DNA of 64,000 nucleotides from Methanoculleus chikugoensis (GCF_019669965.1 NZ_AP019781.1:1861092-1925091); one strand, 5' to 3'; shown: positions 54,376 to 61,811, counted from the first letter of the stretch. The notes: generated by a model not told the origin, from the letters alone. Program-made: numbers and translations.

Positions 54376-54528
54376 ATGATCCTGAAGTACACCCCGCCGA
54401 AGAAGAAACTCTCGGAGATCCTCAAAGAATTCGGGCCGAACCCTGCGCTGGCCGATTCGGTCGCGGAAGCCTCGCGCGAGATGCGAAACGCTTCGATGCG
54501 AGAGGTCGACTTCGATGCCGACGCTTGA
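54376..54528 (+). CDS. small antitoxin-like protein upstream of VapC
   Basis: A 50-residue acidic/basic mixed protein (MILKYTPPKKKLSEILKEFG through MREVDFDADA). The ATG follows GGTGAGG by seven bases, and it overlaps the PIN-domain gene by 14 bases, the usual antitoxin position. Its N-terminus does not show a standard AbrB or RHH DNA-binding fold; the C-terminal acidic stretch could thread into the PIN groove as in VapB proteins. Called by context and size. Confidence 0.7.
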   Translation: MILKYTPPKKKLSEILKEFGPNPALADSVAEASREMRNASMREVDFDADA

Positions 54529-54907
54529 TACGTCCCTGCTCATCGACCTGATCCGGCACGATCCGGAGGCGATGAGAACACTCGATGCGATGGAGCGGGA
54601 AGGGCTGCCGCTTGCAACCACGGCGATCAACGCCCTCGAACTCTACCGCGGCGCGTTCCTCTCGGCATCGGTGCAGGAGAACCTCCGGGAAGTCGAAGCG
54701 ATCACGCGGGCGCTGATCGAACTCCCGATCACCGACGAGACCTACCGGATCTTCGGCACCCTCGCTGCCGAACTCCGGGGAAGAGGCAGCCGGATCGGTA
54801 ATTCCGATGAGGTGGTCGCTGCAATCACGCTCGGGGGCGACGGCGAGATCGTCACCCGGGACAGTCACTTCACCCGCGTTCCGGGGCTGAAGGTCAGGGC
54901 GTATTAG
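54515..54907 (+). CDS. vapC: PIN-domain ribonuclease toxin (VapC-like)
   Basis: A 130-residue PIN nuclease. The acidic active-site residues are D5 (PTLDTSLLIDL), E42 (TAINALELYRG), D98 (RIGNSDEVVAAI) and D116 (EIVTRDSHFTRV), all in the expected order. VapC toxins cut tRNA or rRNA when freed from VapB. It overlaps the upstream small gene and ends 10 bases from the convergent MFS gene. The cognate status of the 50-residue partner is inferred. Confidence 0.9.
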   Translation: MPTLDTSLLIDLIRHDPEAMRTLDAMEREGLPLATTAINALELYRGAFLSASVQENLREVEAITRALIELPITDETYRIFGTLAAELRGRGSRIGNSDEVVAAITLGGDGEIVTRDSHFTRVPGLKVRAY

Positions 54908-54917
54908 AGGCCGCCGA

Positions 54918-56123
54918 TTATACGCTCCCCTGTGGTGCCGGTTCCCGGACCGAGAGGGCGAAGAACCCGCAGACAGCCACCGCGAGGAGGAAACTCACGA
55001 AGAATCCGGGGCCGAAGCCGCTGGCGGCAACAATGATCCCGGTGACCAGGGGGCCTGCCGAATGCCCGATATCCATGATGGACGACAACGCCCCCATCGA
55101 AGCCCCCATCTGCTCTTCTTCTGCAACGTCCGCGACGTACGCACTGGTCGCAACCGTGGAGAGCGACATACCCAGGGCGAGGAAAGAACTTATGAGAAGG
55201 AACGCGGGAAATCCCGGTGCAAACGGGATGGCGGCGACTGAAACCCCCAGGATGAGGAGCCCTATGACGATCTGGACCCTCTTGTCGACCCGGTCGGCGA
55301 TCCTGCCGAAGGATGGCTTCGAGACCGCGATGATCAGCGTCTGGGCGGCGAACAGGATCCCCGTCTGGTAGGCACCCATCCCTCTGGAGAGGACGACAAG
55401 CGGCAGGAACGTCTCAAACGCTCCGAAGGCAAAGTAAGTCCCCATATCCACGAGTGCCGTTGCCCGCAGCCTCCGGTTCGTGAAGAACGTCACAAAACTT
55501 TCCCGAAACGCTGAGAACGGGAGGACCTTCAGGGGGCCCGGGGTCTCCTCACGGTAGAGGAGGATCAGGACGACCACCGGCACTGCGGCGATGGCTGCAG
55601 TGAGGTAGACCATCCGATACGGGATGAGCCCGGGGTAAAAGACGAAGAACGACAGGATAGCCCCGCCGACGAGCGGAGCAAGGGTCCTCCCGATCAGGGT
55701 CGCGGAAGAGTACTGCCCGAGCACCTCCCCCTTCTTCCCGGGAAACCGCACGGCAATCATCGCAGCGATCACCGGCCCGAGGATCGCGGTCGCCATCCCG
55801 TGGAAGAACCGGACCGGGATCAGCCAGAACGGGTCGGTGATGAAGAGATAGAGCAGAGGCGCCGAGAGGAATATCGTTCCGGATGCGATGAGCAGCCTCC
55901 TCTTTCCCAGGTGATCCGAGAGGACCCCCACCGGGAAGGAGAGAAGGATCCCGGCAAGCGGGGAGACCGCTGCAATGAGACCGATGACCGCATCGCCGGC
56001 ACCCAGAGCCTGCGAGAAGAGGGGCAGCACCGGGTTCTTCGAGATCGTCGTCGAGAAGATGGCAAAGAACCCGATCAGAAAGAGGCCATACATCGCGTCC
56101 TGTGCGGAATGGTGCCTGACCAT
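54918..56123 (-). CDS. MFS transporter
   Basis: A 401-residue major facilitator with twelve helices. Motif A is GVLSDHLGKRRLLIASG near 63-79, with a second-half version RIADRVDKRVQIVIGL. It resembles the drug/sugar-efflux MFS group; the substrate is unknown. I use ATG 56123 (MVRHHSAQDAMYGLF), since the open frame to 56264 has no membrane helix. A truncated, frameshifted copy of its N-terminal half plus about 90 bases of upstream DNA lies in the same orientation at 60930-61414. Confidence 0.9.
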   Translation of the reverse strand: MVRHHSAQDAMYGLFLIGFFAIFSTTISKNPVLPLFSQALGAGDAVIGLIAAVSPLAGILLSFPVGVLSDHLGKRRLLIASGTIFLSAPLLYLFITDPFWLIPVRFFHGMATAILGPVIAAMIAVRFPGKKGEVLGQYSSATLIGRTLAPLVGGAILSFFVFYPGLIPYRMVYLTAAIAAVPVVVLILLYREETPGPLKVLPFSAFRESFVTFFTNRRLRATALVDMGTYFAFGAFETFLPLVVLSRGMGAYQTGILFAAQTLIIAVSKPSFGRIADRVDKRVQIVIGLLILGVSVAAIPFAPGFPAFLLISSFLALGMSLSTVATSAYVADVAEEEQMGASMGALSSIMDIGHSAGPLVTGIIVAASGFGPGFFVSFLLAVAVCGFFALSVREPAPQGSV

Positions 56124-56311
56124 GGTTCTGATCGTTTGAGATTTTCCGCGGGCGGGCTTATATGTTCTGATCAAGACCGGGAAGGGTCCCTGTACGGCCT
56201 CCCGGACACACACCCCAGACGAATCGGGCACGAGAAGAGCTCCTTTGTTTCTCCTCTCAGGCAACTGACAGAAGCCAGGAACAAAAAAGAAGAACCGACC
56301 TCCCTGATGGG

Positions 56312-57352
56312 CTACCCTGAATCAGCCGGCTCATAGACGTAGAGAATAGTATCGTGGACAAAGAAGTAGGTCTTCTCGTCACCGTCATAGATGACGCGCT
56401 GGTTCATATCAACAGCCGCGCTGATGATATCCTCGAGCGAACCGAGTTCAATCCTGTGCGCTGTGATACTATGGTCAAACCTGCCCCGGCTCATCCAGTC
56501 GCGATACCGGGCGTGTACCGCTTCCTGCTCCAGTGCCTGAAGCATATCGGCGGAGGGTTTGAAGCGCGGAGATCTTGACAGTATGACCCAGAAGAGCATA
56601 CCCAACGAGGCCAGCAGGAGGAGTACTGCGGCATACTGCTGGTGCAGGGGAGGATAGACCTCGATCGTCCGTGCCTCGCGGGCTGTGACCGCCTCGGCGA
56701 AACTCAGGTTATCGGATATACTGTAGTGACCTGCCCCCAGGGTGATGGGCATCAGGTACTCCCGGCGTTCATTGACCGCTTTTCCGTCAACCGTTCCGGT
56801 GAATACAGCCGTGGTGACGACATCGACAACAGGAGTCCCTCGCTGAAAGTCCAGATACTCCTTGATCTCATTCAGTCGCCATTGCATATCCTCCATGTCC
56901 AGGGTGAACGAGTTCTGGTATACCCCCGACTGCAGCGGCCCTGCGTTCTCGGCAATCACCACCTCTTTGCTCCAGTAGGTCGTGTCCGACTCCTTCATCG
57001 ACAGAACCGCCACCGTATGCGACACGACATCCAGATCCACAGCCTCTCCTTCAACAAGGAAGGTGAATGTCGTCTGCAGTTCCGGGGTTGCCGCAAAGAA
57101 ATAGACCGGGTTGTCCGTCAGTGTTGTACCGACCGGCCAGAGCGGGTTTCCTTCCGAGACGACCGCCCGGTACTCGTACCGGCCATCTATGGAATACCAG
57201 GGGACGTCGACGGTCACATCCCTGGACTCCGGCATGTACCAGCTCGTGTATACAAACAGCCCTGACACAATGATGCACACAACAACAACCGGCAGTACCA
57301 GTGTGAACTTTTCAGCAGTCAGTGATTGAAATCTCTTAATTCTCCAGTACAC
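56312..57352 (-). CDS. DUF5305 membrane protein
   Basis: A 346-residue protein matching the archaeal DUF5305 family. One N-terminal helix (FTLVLPVVVVCIIVSGLFVY, 16-35), a large extracytoplasmic domain (about 40-235, beta-rich, with VPWYSIDGRYEYRAVVSEGN), a second helix (YAAVLLLLASLGMLFWVIL) and a cytoplasmic tail. DUF5305 genes commonly sit beside signal peptidase I and SipW-type proteins, as here. It overlaps the signal peptidase gene by 17 bases. Possibly a partner or scaffold for processing; no enzyme motif is seen. Confidence 0.85.
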   Translation of the reverse strand: MYWRIKRFQSLTAEKFTLVLPVVVVCIIVSGLFVYTSWYMPESRDVTVDVPWYSIDGRYEYRAVVSEGNPLWPVGTTLTDNPVYFFAATPELQTTFTFLVEGEAVDLDVVSHTVAVLSMKESDTTYWSKEVVIAENAGPLQSGVYQNSFTLDMEDMQWRLNEIKEYLDFQRGTPVVDVVTTAVFTGTVDGKAVNERREYLMPITLGAGHYSISDNLSFAEAVTAREARTIEVYPPLHQQYAAVLLLLASLGMLFWVILSRSPRFKPSADMLQALEQEAVHARYRDWMSRGRFDHSITAHRIELGSLEDIISAAVDMNQRVIYDGDEKTYFFVHDTILYVYEPADSG

Positions 57353-58340
57353 GATCTACAAGCCTCCTTTTACGGCGTAATTTCACAAACTTTTTCTCGG
57401 CCCAGAGCGGGTGCAGGACGAGTGTCAGAAAGGCTCCCGGCAGGATTGCCAGAGCGAGGACAGGGAGATACGGGTTCAATCCGGCAAGCCCCACAAACCA
57501 GAATACAGGAAGGACATACGGCAATCTGGCTACGGTGCATTCCGGCTCAGTCCCGGATATCGGAATGGAGACAGTTTCTCCGGGCTGCACAATCCCGTAT
57601 ACAGGAACTCCACCCACACCGGGCGTGCATATCAGGTACGCCTCAGGAACCAGGCCTCGCCCCTCTACCGTTATGCAACCGTTTTGAGGAACGCTGGAGC
57701 CTGAAAAAGAGCCGTATGTCTGTATCCCAGAAAGAGAGGGCACGGTCAGTAGAAGGAAGAGGGCCAGAACGACCGAGGAGAGAAAGAAGAGCCGGGAGTA
57801 CCTGATCGAGAAGATTTGCCCTTTCGGCACCGGACTCTCCCGGGAGAGCCGGCGGGCGGCATGGGGGCCGTGCGTGAGTTTTCGCGTCTCCAGAAGGGCC
57901 AGCATCAGCGAGGGAAGGATAACCATCAGGAGGATAACCTGCTTCTTCATCTCTGATGCAAACCCGATGAACGGGATGAGAAATATCGGCCTGCCGATGA
58001 TATCGCCCTTTGAGACGGAGAAACGGTCGGGAGCGCTATTTGCGTCTCCTTTTGTCGAATACAGACCGGTGTCCGCATCGATACCGGTTACCCGATGGGT
58101 GATGACCATGCGGTCGTCCTGTCCGGGATGCTGGAAGACGATCACGTCCCCGACCCTGACCTGATCCGGATCCGTGGGGGCGACGATGATGACGTCGCCG
58201 GGGAGCATGAGGGGTGTCATGCTCCCGCTCAGGACGATCATGATCAGCATGTCACACCGGACGAAGAGGAGGATTCCCGCCAGGATCACAACACCGATGA
58301 TGACTGAAATCGTTCCCTGGATTGGGCTGACCCGGATCAT
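57336..58340 (-). CDS. signal peptidase I, archaeal Sec11 type
   Basis: A 334-residue membrane peptidase, longer than the minimal 150-200 residues. After helix 1 (TISVIIGVVILAGILLFV) come the S26B catalytic residues: Ser40 in VLSGSMTPLMLPGD, His82 in MVITHRVTGI (histidine rather than bacterial lysine) and Asp99 in YSTKGDANSAPD. The C-terminal 150 residues add three more helices and an exposed domain (LVPEAYLICTPGVGGVPVYG). ATG 58340 gives MIRVSPIQG; GGAGGT lies 12 bases upstream. It overlaps the SipW-type substrate gene by four bases, so it is probably dedicated to it. Confidence 0.93.
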   Translation of the reverse strand: MIRVSPIQGTISVIIGVVILAGILLFVRCDMLIMIVLSGSMTPLMLPGDVIIVAPTDPDQVRVGDVIVFQHPGQDDRMVITHRVTGIDADTGLYSTKGDANSAPDRFSVSKGDIIGRPIFLIPFIGFASEMKKQVILLMVILPSLMLALLETRKLTHGPHAARRLSRESPVPKGQIFSIRYSRLFFLSSVVLALFLLLTVPSLSGIQTYGSFSGSSVPQNGCITVEGRGLVPEAYLICTPGVGGVPVYGIVQPGETVSIPISGTEPECTVARLPYVLPVFWFVGLAGLNPYLPVLALAILPGAFLTLVLHPLWAEKKFVKLRRKRRLVDRVLEN

Positions 58341-58933
58341 ACCTGCAGCCTGACCTCCTTCTCGTTCCCGTCGTCCAGGATGATAGTGCACACGAGGCTC
58401 TTCCCTTCCATGTTCGAGCCAAATGTGAGCAGGATTCCCCGTGCGGGATCGTCCCGGGTTGCCGGCCCGAGCTGAGCCTGCCCCTCGAGTAAGTGGCCGG
58501 ATACTGCTTCTCCGGACCAGAAGACGGTGAACCCTTCATCTCCGGCAGGTTCTGGATTGGAACCTGCCCCTTTCGGCCCCGCACGCGGGGCTTCGCCGCC
58601 CTTTCCGCGGGTAAACGCCGCCTCACGGATCATCTCGCCGTCATCGGGGTCCCATGAGACACGGATGCCCGTAACCTCCAGCGGAGCAGATCCGGTGTTG
58701 TTCACGGTGATGCCGGAGAGGACGGTCTTTGCATGGTTGCCTGCCGGCGGCTTGAGCAGAGGCTGATCGGCAGTTACCATCAGGCTGCCGGCGTCGCCCC
58801 ACGAGCCGGTGGTGATGGAGATCCCTTCGATCACCTCGGTATCGGTGAACCATGCTCCGGCCGGGATGATGTCTGTAACCAGAAACACACCGGCGCAACA
58901 GATAATTACCAGAAGTACGTATGCCTTATTCAT
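58337..58933 (-). CDS. SipW-dependent-type secreted protein
   Basis: A 198-residue exported protein. The signal peptide (AYVLLVIICCAGVFLVTDII) is followed by GAWFTDTEVIEG, the AxFTDxE signature of TasA/camelysin-like proteins that need a dedicated ER-type signal peptidase. The mature part is a beta-sandwich-like domain (ISITTGSWGDAGSLMVTADQ; TVNNTGSAPLEVTGIRVSW). It overlaps the signal peptidase by four bases downstream and a broken gene by eight upstream. Probably a surface or matrix subunit. Confidence 0.82.
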   Translation of the reverse strand: MNKAYVLLVIICCAGVFLVTDIIPAGAWFTDTEVIEGISITTGSWGDAGSLMVTADQPLLKPPAGNHAKTVLSGITVNNTGSAPLEVTGIRVSWDPDDGEMIREAAFTRGKGGEAPRAGPKGAGSNPEPAGDEGFTVFWSGEAVSGHLLEGQAQLGPATRDDPARGILLTFGSNMEGKSLVCTIILDDGNEKEVRLQV

Positions 58934-59340
58934 CGCTCACATCTCCCTGTATCATGGCGTTCGTGGGCGAAGGGCAGCAGGTCACAGGATACGTCGCGTT
59001 GCCTGCAGCTGAATGAACGACACGCACTGCTGCTCCCGCACGGGAAGAGGTCAGATGGAGTTCTGCCCGGGTTCCGGATCGCTCCATCATCCCTGAAGAG
59101 CGCTGTCCGGAACGTTCCGGGCAGGTTCTCATCCCACCGCGGTCTGAGCGCGATGGTGTCGCCGGCATCCGCCGGAGGGGGCATCGAGAGTTCGACGCTG
59201 CCGATGCCCCCCGTGCCGGTGGTTGCGGTCGGTTTCCAGGAAGAGGCGAAGGAGGAGGGGGAAGCGTAGCGTTGGCTTCAGAGGCTCCGCATCCACCCCT
59301 TCTCACTTGCTTCTTGTTCATGATTGCCGGTGTAGAGATC
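58926..59340 (-). pseudogene. frameshifted SipW-cluster gene
   Basis: A stretch that should hold a gene of the cluster, but protein-like sequence jumps between frames. One frame has VDAEPLKPTLR near 59285. A second has SSFASSWKPTATTGTGGIGS then VELSMPPPADAGDTIALRPR and GTFRTALFRDDGAI (about 59090-59260). A third has ERSGTRAELHLTSSRAGAAV and NATYPVTCCPSP before a stop whose TAA overlaps the next ATG (58926-58933). The single open frame of 131 codons starting at 59321 is Arg/Pro/Ser-rich in its first half, as wrong-frame GC-rich DNA is. At least two indels would be needed to restore it. Confidence 0.5.
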
Positions 59341-59349
59341 TTTCAGGGA

Positions 59350-60015
59350 TCACACGGCGGGAGAGGTCTGCGCCCAGCCGGGGTTGTCGGTCTGCGTCGC
59401 GTCGAAGATTACCTTGAACTCTGCCCCCTTATTGGCATAGACATTCCCTGCGTTCTCATCCAGCTTCACCTCGACCTTGAGAATCCGGGTAAACAGCGGA
59501 TTGTCGATGCTGCCCATCGTACCCCCGAAATTGTCTGAGGTCAGGAGAGTGGTGTCGGCATTGGAGAGCTGAGCCCACGTATAGACACCGGAAGGGAACA
59601 GGGACTCAGTCCCGGCATCAGAGATTTCTACATCGGCGGCAACGTCAGATTCCGACATGCTATTAAGGAGCGAAACCTTCGAAATCCGGAACTGGAGCTT
59701 GCCATCCGTCACAAGGTCTCCCCCGGTCTTGACAAAGTATCCCTTCCACTTCAGGGGAACAGTTCCCTCGTTCAGGAGGTGGATATAACCCATAGTTGTC
59801 CAGGTGTTCGTACTGGGAACCAGGTTGGTGACCTTCAGGGTTGATTCGTGCACGCCAAAATAATCCTTGGCAATCTTCACGGACAGATCGGCATTGCCGG
59901 TCTGAATGGCATTCGCTTCTACGATCTCCTGGTCTGTAAACCAGGCAAACGTTCCCAGTCCCATCCCGCCGAGAGCAAGCCCGACGAGCAGGACGCTGAG
60001 AAGATATGCTTTCAT
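59350..60015 (-). CDS. SipW-dependent-type secreted protein, TasA/camelysin-like
   Basis: A 221-residue exported protein. Signal peptide MKAYLLSVLLVGLALGGMGL ends at TFAWFTDQEIVEANAIQTGN, the camelysin/TasA signature. The mature domain is beta-rich (TMGYIHLLNEGTVPLKWKGY; FTRILKVEVKLDENAG; GAEFKVIFDATQTDN). ATG 60015 lies eight bases after GGGG; ATG 60030 is possible. First of the cluster SipW-(broken gene)-SipW-Sec11-DUF5305. ATTTAAATACA near 60112-60122 on the minus strand looks like its TATA box, leaving a leader of about 75 bases. Confidence 0.85.
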   Translation of the reverse strand: MKAYLLSVLLVGLALGGMGLGTFAWFTDQEIVEANAIQTGNADLSVKIAKDYFGVHESTLKVTNLVPSTNTWTTMGYIHLLNEGTVPLKWKGYFVKTGGDLVTDGKLQFRISKVSLLNSMSESDVAADVEISDAGTESLFPSGVYTWAQLSNADTTLLTSDNFGGTMGSIDNPLFTRILKVEVKLDENAGNVYANKGAEFKVIFDATQTDNPGWAQTSPAV

Positions 60016-60929
60016 TTTTATTTCCCCCATTATCGTCGCGAGGCCTTCTTTGAGCTTGTCAATCCCAGGATGGGCCCGATTCCGACCCCGCATCCCTCCG
60101 GGGGATACACCTGTATTTAAATGTATCTATCGAACGATTTTTCGTCCGGAGCGGCTGCAAAGCGCAGCTCACATAACGCTCTGATTATATACCAAAAACA
60201 GGATCTAAGCCGGGGCTTGAACAGAGATATAATCTTTGCCAGAAGGCATCCGCAGATATTGGAACGTTTCGGAGATTATACCGTTCATTCTTCAGAGTAG
60301 CCGTTCGACCAGGCGATCTCGGATAGCGGATTCCTGCGTTCCGGGAGAAGAACGAGATAGATTCGAAATATATTTATATGAAATAGCCAAGAGGGTGCGG
60401 CACCCCCTTTCATGAAAAAGGATCGTACCGGCACTCGAAAGAAATAATGACCTTTTTATAATATCGGTTGGTGTATTCACCCCGATGTCCCCGGTTCATG
60501 GAGTGCCTGAGACGCCCGATCGCGACTCCCCGCAAAGCCTCCCGGGCATCGGCTCTCCGGCGGCCTCCAGGTGGAAAAGCCGTTCATACCGGCGAAAACT
60601 CCTGTCCCGCACCCACCGTGCCGCTTTCCGCATGCAAACGTAAATGATCTTTTTGCATTGTGGTTATGACAATTGAGGGGTGAATCCATGGAATTCTGAG
60701 GGGCACTGGAACTCCGGGGCCGGGTACTACTGCAACGATTCTTAACCCGAGGGGTGGCATGGGAAACAGGATTCTCGAATGAACGAATCGAGAAGAGCAG
60801 ATCCCCCGGCAATAGTTACCCGGATCATTCGTCCCGCTGTAAGCACCGTCGATGCCCGGATTTCCCATCACCACGATCGGCGGTGCGTTCCGGGCTTTCC
60901 CATGTACCGGCCTTTATCGCCGGATCGCT
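60016..60929. other. gene-free region between SipW cluster and transporter pseudogene
   Basis: About 900 bases with no credible gene. It is a mosaic of AT-rich (60100-60490) and GC-rich (60500-60600) DNA. A perfect hairpin GGGTGC-G-GCACCC at 60393-60405 is followed by CCCTTT, and a TATA-like AATATATTTATATG lies just before it (60367-60380). GATCTTTTTGCATTGTGG near 60647 and a GAATGAACGA repeat near 60777 were noted. A short frame at 60292-60480 on the minus strand has no supporting signal. It could contain a small RNA, but nothing here proves it. Confidence 0.4.
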
Positions 60930-61414
60930 TTTGATACGGCATGAGCCCGGGGTAAAAGACGAAGTCCGACAGGACAGCCCCGCCGACGAGCGGGGCAAGG
61001 GTCCTCCCGATCAGGGTCGCGGAAGAATACTGCCCGGGCGCTTCCCCCGTCTTCCCGGCAAATCGCACCGCAGTCATCGCAGCAATCACCGGTCCAGGGA
61101 TTGCGGTCGCTGTCCCGTGGAAGAACCGGACCGGGATCAGCCGGAGCGGGCCGTTGATGAAGAGGCAGAGCAGAGGCGCCGAGAGGAATACTGCTCCGGA
61201 TGCGATCAGCAGCTCCCTCTTTCCCAGGTGATCCAGGAGGCCCCGCAAGCTGGGAGACCGCCGCAACAAGACCGATGACCGCGTCGCCGGCACCCGTGGC
61301 CCGAGAGAAGAGGGGTAGCACCGGGTTCTTCGAGATGGTCGTCAAGAAGATCGCAAAGAACCCGATCAGAAAGAGACCGTACATCGCGTCCGGTGCGGAA
61401 TGATGCCCGATCAT
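60930..61414 (-). pseudogene. truncated, frameshifted copy of the MFS transporter at 54918-56123
   Basis: The minus strand begins MIGHHSAPDAMYGLF at 61414 and follows the intact transporter (MVRHHSAQDAMYGLF) through FFAIFLTTISKNPVLPLFSR and GDAVIGLVAAVSQLAG. A deletion of about 26 bases near 61241 then breaks the frame, and homology resumes in another frame as DHLGKRELLIASGAVFLSAP, FFHGTATAIPGPVIAAMTAV and SATLIGRTLAPLVGG, ending near 60930 at YPGLMPY. Only the N-terminal 175 or so residues are represented, so it cannot make a transporter. Confidence 0.88.
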
Positions 61415-61811
61415 GGTTTTTATCGCTTGAGGTTCTCCGCGAGCGGACTTATACGTTGCAATCTGACGGGGAAGGGCCACTGTACGGCCTTCCGGACAGC
61501 ACACCCCTGAAAAAAACCACCGCCGCACGGGATCCGGCATCCGGGGGATAGGCCTCGTACACGACACCATAATAACAGCAAATTTTCGACGGCCGCAAAA
61601 ACCAGGCTTGCATTAGCGATATTCGCCACTCCGCGACGAGATTTGTCATGTAGAATCATTACAAAACCTATAAAGCCGATCTGGTAACACGCTTTAAGGT
61701 TCATACCGATTATCGGTTTGGCTTTCCGGGAGACGGTTCATATGCCGGGGAACCTGAACTGCAGAATCATAAAGATGCTCGAATAGACAGTCACAACATG
61801 AGGCGACAACC
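61415..61811. other. duplicated upstream DNA and acd promoter region
   Basis: The part at 61415-61510 resembles the DNA upstream of the intact MFS gene (TTGAGGTTCTCCGCGAGCGG against TTGAGATTTTCCGCGGGCGG), so the duplication extended past the coding start. From 61560 to 61800 the region is AT-rich; AATCATAAAGATG near 61765-61777 is a possible TATA box for the acyl-CoA synthetase, whose ATG follows GAGGCGAC by about seven bases. Confidence 0.55.

Follow-up and report, generated by a model that had tools for sequence, protein, structure and literature searches.

In the tapA-sipW-tasA biofilm-fibre operon of Bacillus subtilis, the filament protein TasA is encoded together with a second, minor secreted protein and a dedicated signal peptidase of the SipW/Sec11 type. 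A signal-peptidase fold is also found in a pilus system of Streptococcus pyogenes, where the peptidase homologue SipA (PDB 4n31) is needed for polymerisation and serves a sortase pilus. In archaea, homologues of TasA are already known from the archaeal bundling pili (AbpA) of Pyrobaculum calidifontis, whose filament subunits are of the TasA type (Wang et al., 2022, cited in passages of PMC9674648 and PMC10151520), and Tat-fimbriae (tafi) with TafA as core component have been reported as well (Galeva et al., 2025, cited in a passage of PMC12687288). The present analysis concerns a stretch of 64,000 nucleotides (nt), referred to as the window, which spans positions 1861092-1925091 of the single-contig 2.62 Mb genome of Methanoculleus chikugoensis (NZ_AP019781.1). 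It encodes two secreted proteins, TasA1 and TasB, a long Sec11-type signal peptidase (Sec11L) and a protein of the family DUF5305 (Table 1). We consider it fairly probable that this module specifies a Sec-exported TasA-type surface filament which is matured and assembled by a membrane pair of Sec11L and DUF5305. A preliminary description of this DNA had held a matrix or fibre system of this kind in a methanogen to be worth describing; TasA-type fibres of archaea are anticipated by the bundling pili. As far as could be checked, new are instead the near-universal linkage of DUF5305 to long Sec11 peptidases, the occurrence of this pair in both TasA-type and Tat-type clusters, and the very probable decay of a second peptidase in Methanoculleus.

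The genes are transcribed from the minus strand in the order TasA1, TasB, Sec11L and DUF5305, with a gap of 416 nt that holds a broken open reading frame (ORF) between the first two. The claim of one overlapping gene string holds for TasB, Sec11L and DUF5305, as the TasB stop and the Sec11L start have the sequence ATGA in common and Sec11L runs 17 nt into DUF5305, but TasA1 is set apart by the gap. This gene string is far beyond chance, because its products match known families, its synteny is kept in eight Methanoculleus genomes and its components co-occur exactly. Within the family Methanomicrobiaceae, to which the window belongs, TasA1, the Sec11 extension and DUF5305 were found in exactly the same eight of 40 genomes, for which the chance is 1 in 7.7e7 if independence is assumed and phylogeny ignored. 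One genome of this family (G010) gave a DUF5305 hit below the cut-off only, located inside a frame of 1275 amino acids (aa).

The presence of DUF5305 itself, as described before, was borne out by a match to PF17231 (E=7e-44, 150.3 bits against a gathering cut-off of 29). Of 392 genomes from the phylum, 113 contain the family; the 14 control genomes and the phages searched gave no hit. Sixty neighbourhoods around chosen DUF5305 hits were surveyed; the choice aimed at breadth and was not random, and eight of the loci come from one genus. The linkage of DUF5305 to a signal peptidase, which such a survey had been expected to reveal or to disprove, proved to be conserved: a long Sec11 (265-554 aa) lies in the fetched stretch for all 58 full-length DUF5305 genes (window included), at a distance of less than 2 kb in 53 and on the same strand in 49 of these loci. 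At one locus (L052) the nearest complete long Sec11 is 6.9 kb off, plus a C-terminal fragment adjoining DUF5305, and at two others (L073, L078) the C-terminal extension of Sec11 was not recognised. The sole DUF5305 locus without a Sec11 (L049) holds a mere fragment of DUF5305, and two loci taken from sub-cut-off hits (L047, L050) contain neither of the two. DUF5305 was not mentioned in the literature searched; the tafi paper lay outside that scope and may already name it.

TasA1 is, as judged from profile comparison, a homologue of TasA. A profile built from 17 relatives matched the structures 5of1 and 8aur of B. subtilis TasA, which include monomer and fibre forms, at E=1e-7 over profile positions 34-208, the mature domain, and AbpX of the archaeal bundling pili (9sj2) weakly at E=0.06. 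The TasA/camelysin likeness proposed for the secreted proteins is thereby upheld for TasA1 and, in weaker form, for TasB. Of the two outcomes named beforehand as refuting, structures unrelated to TasA or camelysin and a lack of conserved linkage between DUF5305 and the peptidase, neither was encountered. Both intact signal ends of the AWFTD type are in place (GLGTFA-WFTD in TasA1, IPAGA-WFTD in TasB), and TasA1 matches the SipW-signal model TIGR04088 with 28.9 bits (E=9e-7; cut-off 19). Its cut is predicted after Ala24, which gives a mature start of WFTDQE. Phe26, the P2' residue of this cut, is invariant in 17 of 17 aligned relatives, and TasA1 has eight columns that are invariant or nearly so, four of which fall within residues 22-35, i.e., the cut and the new N-terminal strand. 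The corresponding Phe29 of TasB is invariant among its aligned relatives. According to the part of PMC10269814 consulted, an aromatic P2' residue distinguishes SipW substrates and makes TasA unsuitable for LepB of Escherichia coli; for camelysin, a passage of PMC10151520 places the residues of highest conservation at the protomer interface. TasB scores only 14 bits with TIGR04088, below the same cut-off. Its mature part aligned with that of TasA1-like proteins at 92% in hhalign over 66 columns, and its relatives reach as far as Methanosarcina. As it matches TasA1 over these columns but nothing in the PDB, TasB is termed a divergent relative, probably a partial homologue of TasA1.

Sec11L belongs to the archaeal type I signal peptidases (TIGR02228, E=2e-28, 99.3 bits against a cut-off of 51.85). 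The catalytic residues that had been named for it, Ser40 (SGSM), His82 (THR) and Asp99 (TKGDAN), are present and, together with Asp105, each invariant in 25 aligned Sec11 proteins. The C-terminal extension of 180 aa contains, by hydropathy, a transmembrane segment, a small beta domain and further transmembrane segments, with a Pfam hint of an Ig-like domain in two of 25 members. With the equivalog model of Bacillus SipW (NF046067) Sec11L reaches 72.2 bits, below the cut-off of 190, and it was not filed as SipW; its sequence points to a SipW/Sec11-like mode of action. Its AlphaFold model is poor (pLDDT 65) and does not allow a fold to be assigned to the extension, with a core that resembles human Sec11A/C and S. 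pyogenes SipA, the second-ranked Foldseek match; compared to SipA, Sec11L retains the catalytic residues. The only other Sec11 of the genome, a 230-aa frame distant from the module, is a separate housekeeping copy. In a quick tree of the core domain (FastTree, midpoint root) the long Sec11s of TasA-type clusters stand together, apart from the short and housekeeping copies, and the haloarchaeal long Sec11s form another group. The window thus resembles tapA-sipW-tasA in its TasA-homologous subunit, its second, minor secreted protein, its dedicated peptidase of the SipW/Sec11 type and the aromatics after the cut. It differs in the extension of Sec11L, in TasB not being an equivalog of TapA and in DUF5305, which was not found in the B. 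subtilis control genome.

For DUF5305, an AlphaFold model (13 sequences, mean pLDDT 81) comprises a membrane helix (residues 16-39), a long-stranded beta sandwich (~42-232), a second helix (236-260) and, at the C terminus, a small domain. In the model the outer domain takes the form of an Ig-like sandwich, with the Ig-like domains of factor XIII/transglutaminase as top structural matches (Z-score 9.6, 113 residues, root-mean-square deviation 3.0) and most other matches tied near Z 7, a likeness without functional identification. A profile search of the PDB gave marginal, unrelated matches only. DUF5305 was also considered as a TasA relative; no such relation could be detected, the profile comparisons being negative and TasA not being among the structural matches listed.

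From these observations we infer the following mechanism. TasA1, as main subunit, and TasB, as probable minor, initiating or tip subunit, would be exported through Sec by their SipW-type signal peptides and cut by Sec11L at A-x-A|W-F. The cut would free the conserved N-terminal strand, which in TasA goes to the next subunit, so that TasA1 could assemble by strand exchange. Sec11L and DUF5305 would form a physical complex in the membrane that retains the subunits during maturation and passes them on to the filament as it grows, and it is probably this conserved pair that plays the assembly part. Sec11L would contribute the active site and an extra outer beta domain, and DUF5305 its cytosolic domain as well as the outer Ig-like domain, which is flanked by two membrane helices. 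If this is true, Methanoculleus, a common biogas methanogen, would carry a TasA-type surface fibre.

Several points weigh against this proposal. The score of TasA1 with Pfam M73 camelysin (22.1 bits) lies just below the gathering cut-off of 22.5, and TasA1 was therefore filed as TasA-like and not as camelysin M73; among the proteins of the window no match to the equivalog of TasA sensu stricto (NF046066) was reported either. The TasB profile found no match in the PDB. Compared profile against profile, DUF5305 matched neither TasA1 nor TasB nor the Sec11 extension, its Ig-like match represents a common arrangement, and in nine of the 58 loci Sec11L and DUF5305 are on different strands. In contrast to the B. 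subtilis fibre, the filament of Methanoculleus is a prediction from its genes. Finally, the subunits of Tat-fimbriae are not detectably homologous to TasA1, so that the pair could have a purpose broader than filaments.

This last point follows from the haloarchaeal clusters. At 19 of 25 haloarchaeal DUF5305/Sec11 loci there are genes for proteins that begin with a twin-arginine motif and have G-x-G-A-F ends, and several of these proteins score to DUF1102 or Taf models. At one locus (L129) TafF, TafE, TafA and TafC are all above their NCBIfam equivalog cut-offs and are flanked by DUF5305 (PF17231, E=3e-44) and a Sec11 of 381 aa. TafA lies 2-3 kb from DUF5305 in five genomes of one genus, and plasmid pHME505 of Haloferax mediterranei carries DUF5305, a TafF-like protein, TafE and TafA, plus a signal peptidase I across the origin of the record. 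These clusters hold DUF5305 and a long Sec11 like the window, whereas the subunits differ: those of the window start with MKAYLLS (TasA1) and MNKAYVLL (TasB) and lack a twin-arginine signal, and the genome of the window has no match to the TafA equivalog. Taf pilins were examined as homologues of TasA1 and discarded, as the sequence comparison was negative. As TasA1 and the Taf pilins are without sequence homology, the part common to both kinds of cluster is the peptidase-DUF5305 pair. It is possible, though we propose it tentatively, that this pair is a general archaeal platform which couples signal-peptide removal to surface-filament assembly in an usher-like manner for two kinds of fimbriae; just as tentatively, the subunits would be exported by Sec in methanogens (TasA-type) and by Tat in haloarchaea (Taf-type). 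Nucleation, anchoring and assembly of both archaeal filament types lack a known usher, for which Sec11L-DUF5305 would be a concrete and genetically testable candidate, and DUF5305, a family without function, would gain a role to test.

That the pair accompanies subunits of unrelated families (TasA-type as well as Taf/DUF1102-type) could also mean that Sec11L and DUF5305 are an alternative signal peptidase complex of general use. Such a complex would have no part in filament assembly and would have pilins among its substrates only incidentally, with DUF5305 as a subunit without catalytic activity, comparable to Spc22/23 or TRAP-alpha. Several loci of the small-genome family f9 and of haloarchaea that hold the pair but no recognised pilin fit this, as does the resemblance of the outer domain to TRAP-alpha among many others (Z 7.4, tied with unrelated folds). 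The patchy occurrence of the pair as a unit with substrate genes, however, ill fits a housekeeping complex, and the genome has a separate housekeeping Sec11; we regard this explanation as rather doubtful. Somewhat less probable still is that the TasA1/TasB filament exists as proposed but DUF5305 has a regulatory or sensory role, in which its outer domain would sense the state of export or envelope and its cytosolic domain would signal inward or gate Sec11L. Conservation within DUF5305 is indeed highest in the cytosolic C-terminal domain (SLEDLVDAAIDMNERVIYD) and not in the outer domain, which would be unexpected for a mere assembly scaffold, but family-library searches recognised no known signalling domain in DUF5305 and its partner is a peptidase, not a regulator. 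That TasA1 and TasB are soluble or cell-bound proteins of the camelysin type (enzymes or S-layer-associated) in need of a private signal peptidase is, despite the weak Pfam match to the camelysin metallo-endopeptidase, unlikely, as the closest solved homologues are monomer and fibre of the filament protein TasA and the core is common to the fimbrial Taf clusters.

The broken ORF between TasA1 and TasB had been taken for a third, broken AWFTD protein. A broken ORF does exist there, but this identity was rejected: it has no signal motif and no third-position bias, and it aligns with a short Sec11 instead. A gap of ~300-420 nt is found at the same position in seven further Methanoculleus-type loci. 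Read frame by frame, its ORF has a conserved start and is open in some genomes but frame-shifted in the window and at two other loci (L040, L042), and its substitutions show no preference for third codon positions in its frame. In Methanocalculus (L048 = L107), with identical gene order, an intact Sec11 of 157 aa occupies this slot. The gap product of one Methanoculleus-type locus (L044) is co-linear with this short Sec11 from the first residues (45.8 bits, E=7e-12 in a single-sequence search), and the serine of its GTSMEP motif is substituted (GTGMGP). The ORF of the window reached 28.9 bits with the same protein, a score which none of 1000 shuffles equalled. With a hidden Markov model from all short Sec11 copies, only the L044 gap scored distinctly above the shuffles (12.0 bits against 3.4 for the best decoy), and the argument is therefore based mainly on pairwise alignment with the closest short Sec11 that is intact. 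Because of the alignment to the short Sec11, the serine lost at L044 and the lack of third-position bias, the ORF is very probably a decaying relic of a second, short Sec11. Short and long Sec11 also occur together in Methanosarcina-type and f9-family clusters, and the ancestral cluster may have carried both, the short one having decayed in Methanoculleus.

Table 1. Features of the module and its surroundings, with positions counted from the first nucleotide of the window.
Feature	Position	Strand	Description	Remark
Possible archaeal TATA box ATTTAAATA	60112-60126	minus	~100 nt upstream of TasA1	candidate, read from sequence
TasA1	59350-60015	minus	221 aa, TasA/camelysin-like secreted protein, SipW-type signal peptide	
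Frame-shifted ORF	58934-59321	minus	probable relic of a second, short Sec11	slot shared with the short Sec11 of Methanocalculus
TasB	58337-58933	minus	198 aa, secreted protein, divergent TasA1 relative	signal end AGA-WFTD
Sec11L	57336-58340	minus	334 aa, archaeal type I signal peptidase	180-aa C-terminal extension
DUF5305	56312-57352	minus	346 aa; predicted N-terminal transmembrane segment, outer Ig-like beta sandwich, second transmembrane segment, small cytosolic domain	
T-rich stretch, possible transcription end	56280-56300	minus	immediately 3' of the DUF5305 stop	candidate, read from sequence

Besides the signals in Table 1, a G-rich, putatively ribosome-binding stretch can be read immediately 5' of the TasA1 ATG. 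The module occupies a single slot between the genes of a DRG-type GTPase and an acyl-CoA ligase, and the distance from flank to flank is 9.0 kb with the module, compared to 2.6 kb (G007) and 2.3 kb (G002) in Methanoculleus genomes without it.

The survey also provided some observations on Sec11L-DUF5305 pairs of other genomes. In the family f9 (L060-L079) the vicinity of the pair often lacks a recognised TasA-type gene, and in two of its genomes (G069, G103) such a pair occurs alongside a second, TasA-linked one. On plasmid pNMAG02 of Natrialba magadii a protein of 479 aa (L083:8650-10089), which combines a NosL domain with an N-terminal region resembling TafE (below the cut-off), directly precedes Sec11L and DUF5305. 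Several haloarchaeal pairs are adjoined by rhomboid/rhombosortase-like membrane proteins (L097:4265-5173, L099:8178-9053), beside CARDB and PGF-pre-PGF proteins; perhaps these are another processing partner.

Within the window, an MFS transporter gene (54918-56264) and a truncated, frame-broken second copy of it (60868-61570, minus strand) lie one on each side of the module, with 83% DNA identity over ~600 nt (60933-61510 versus 55616-56219). Further out, at 54376-54907 on the plus strand, a small ORF of 50 aa overlaps the gene of a PIN-domain protein (Pfam PIN, E=3e-12), a pair which, from its sequence, looks like a toxin-antitoxin system of the VapBC type.

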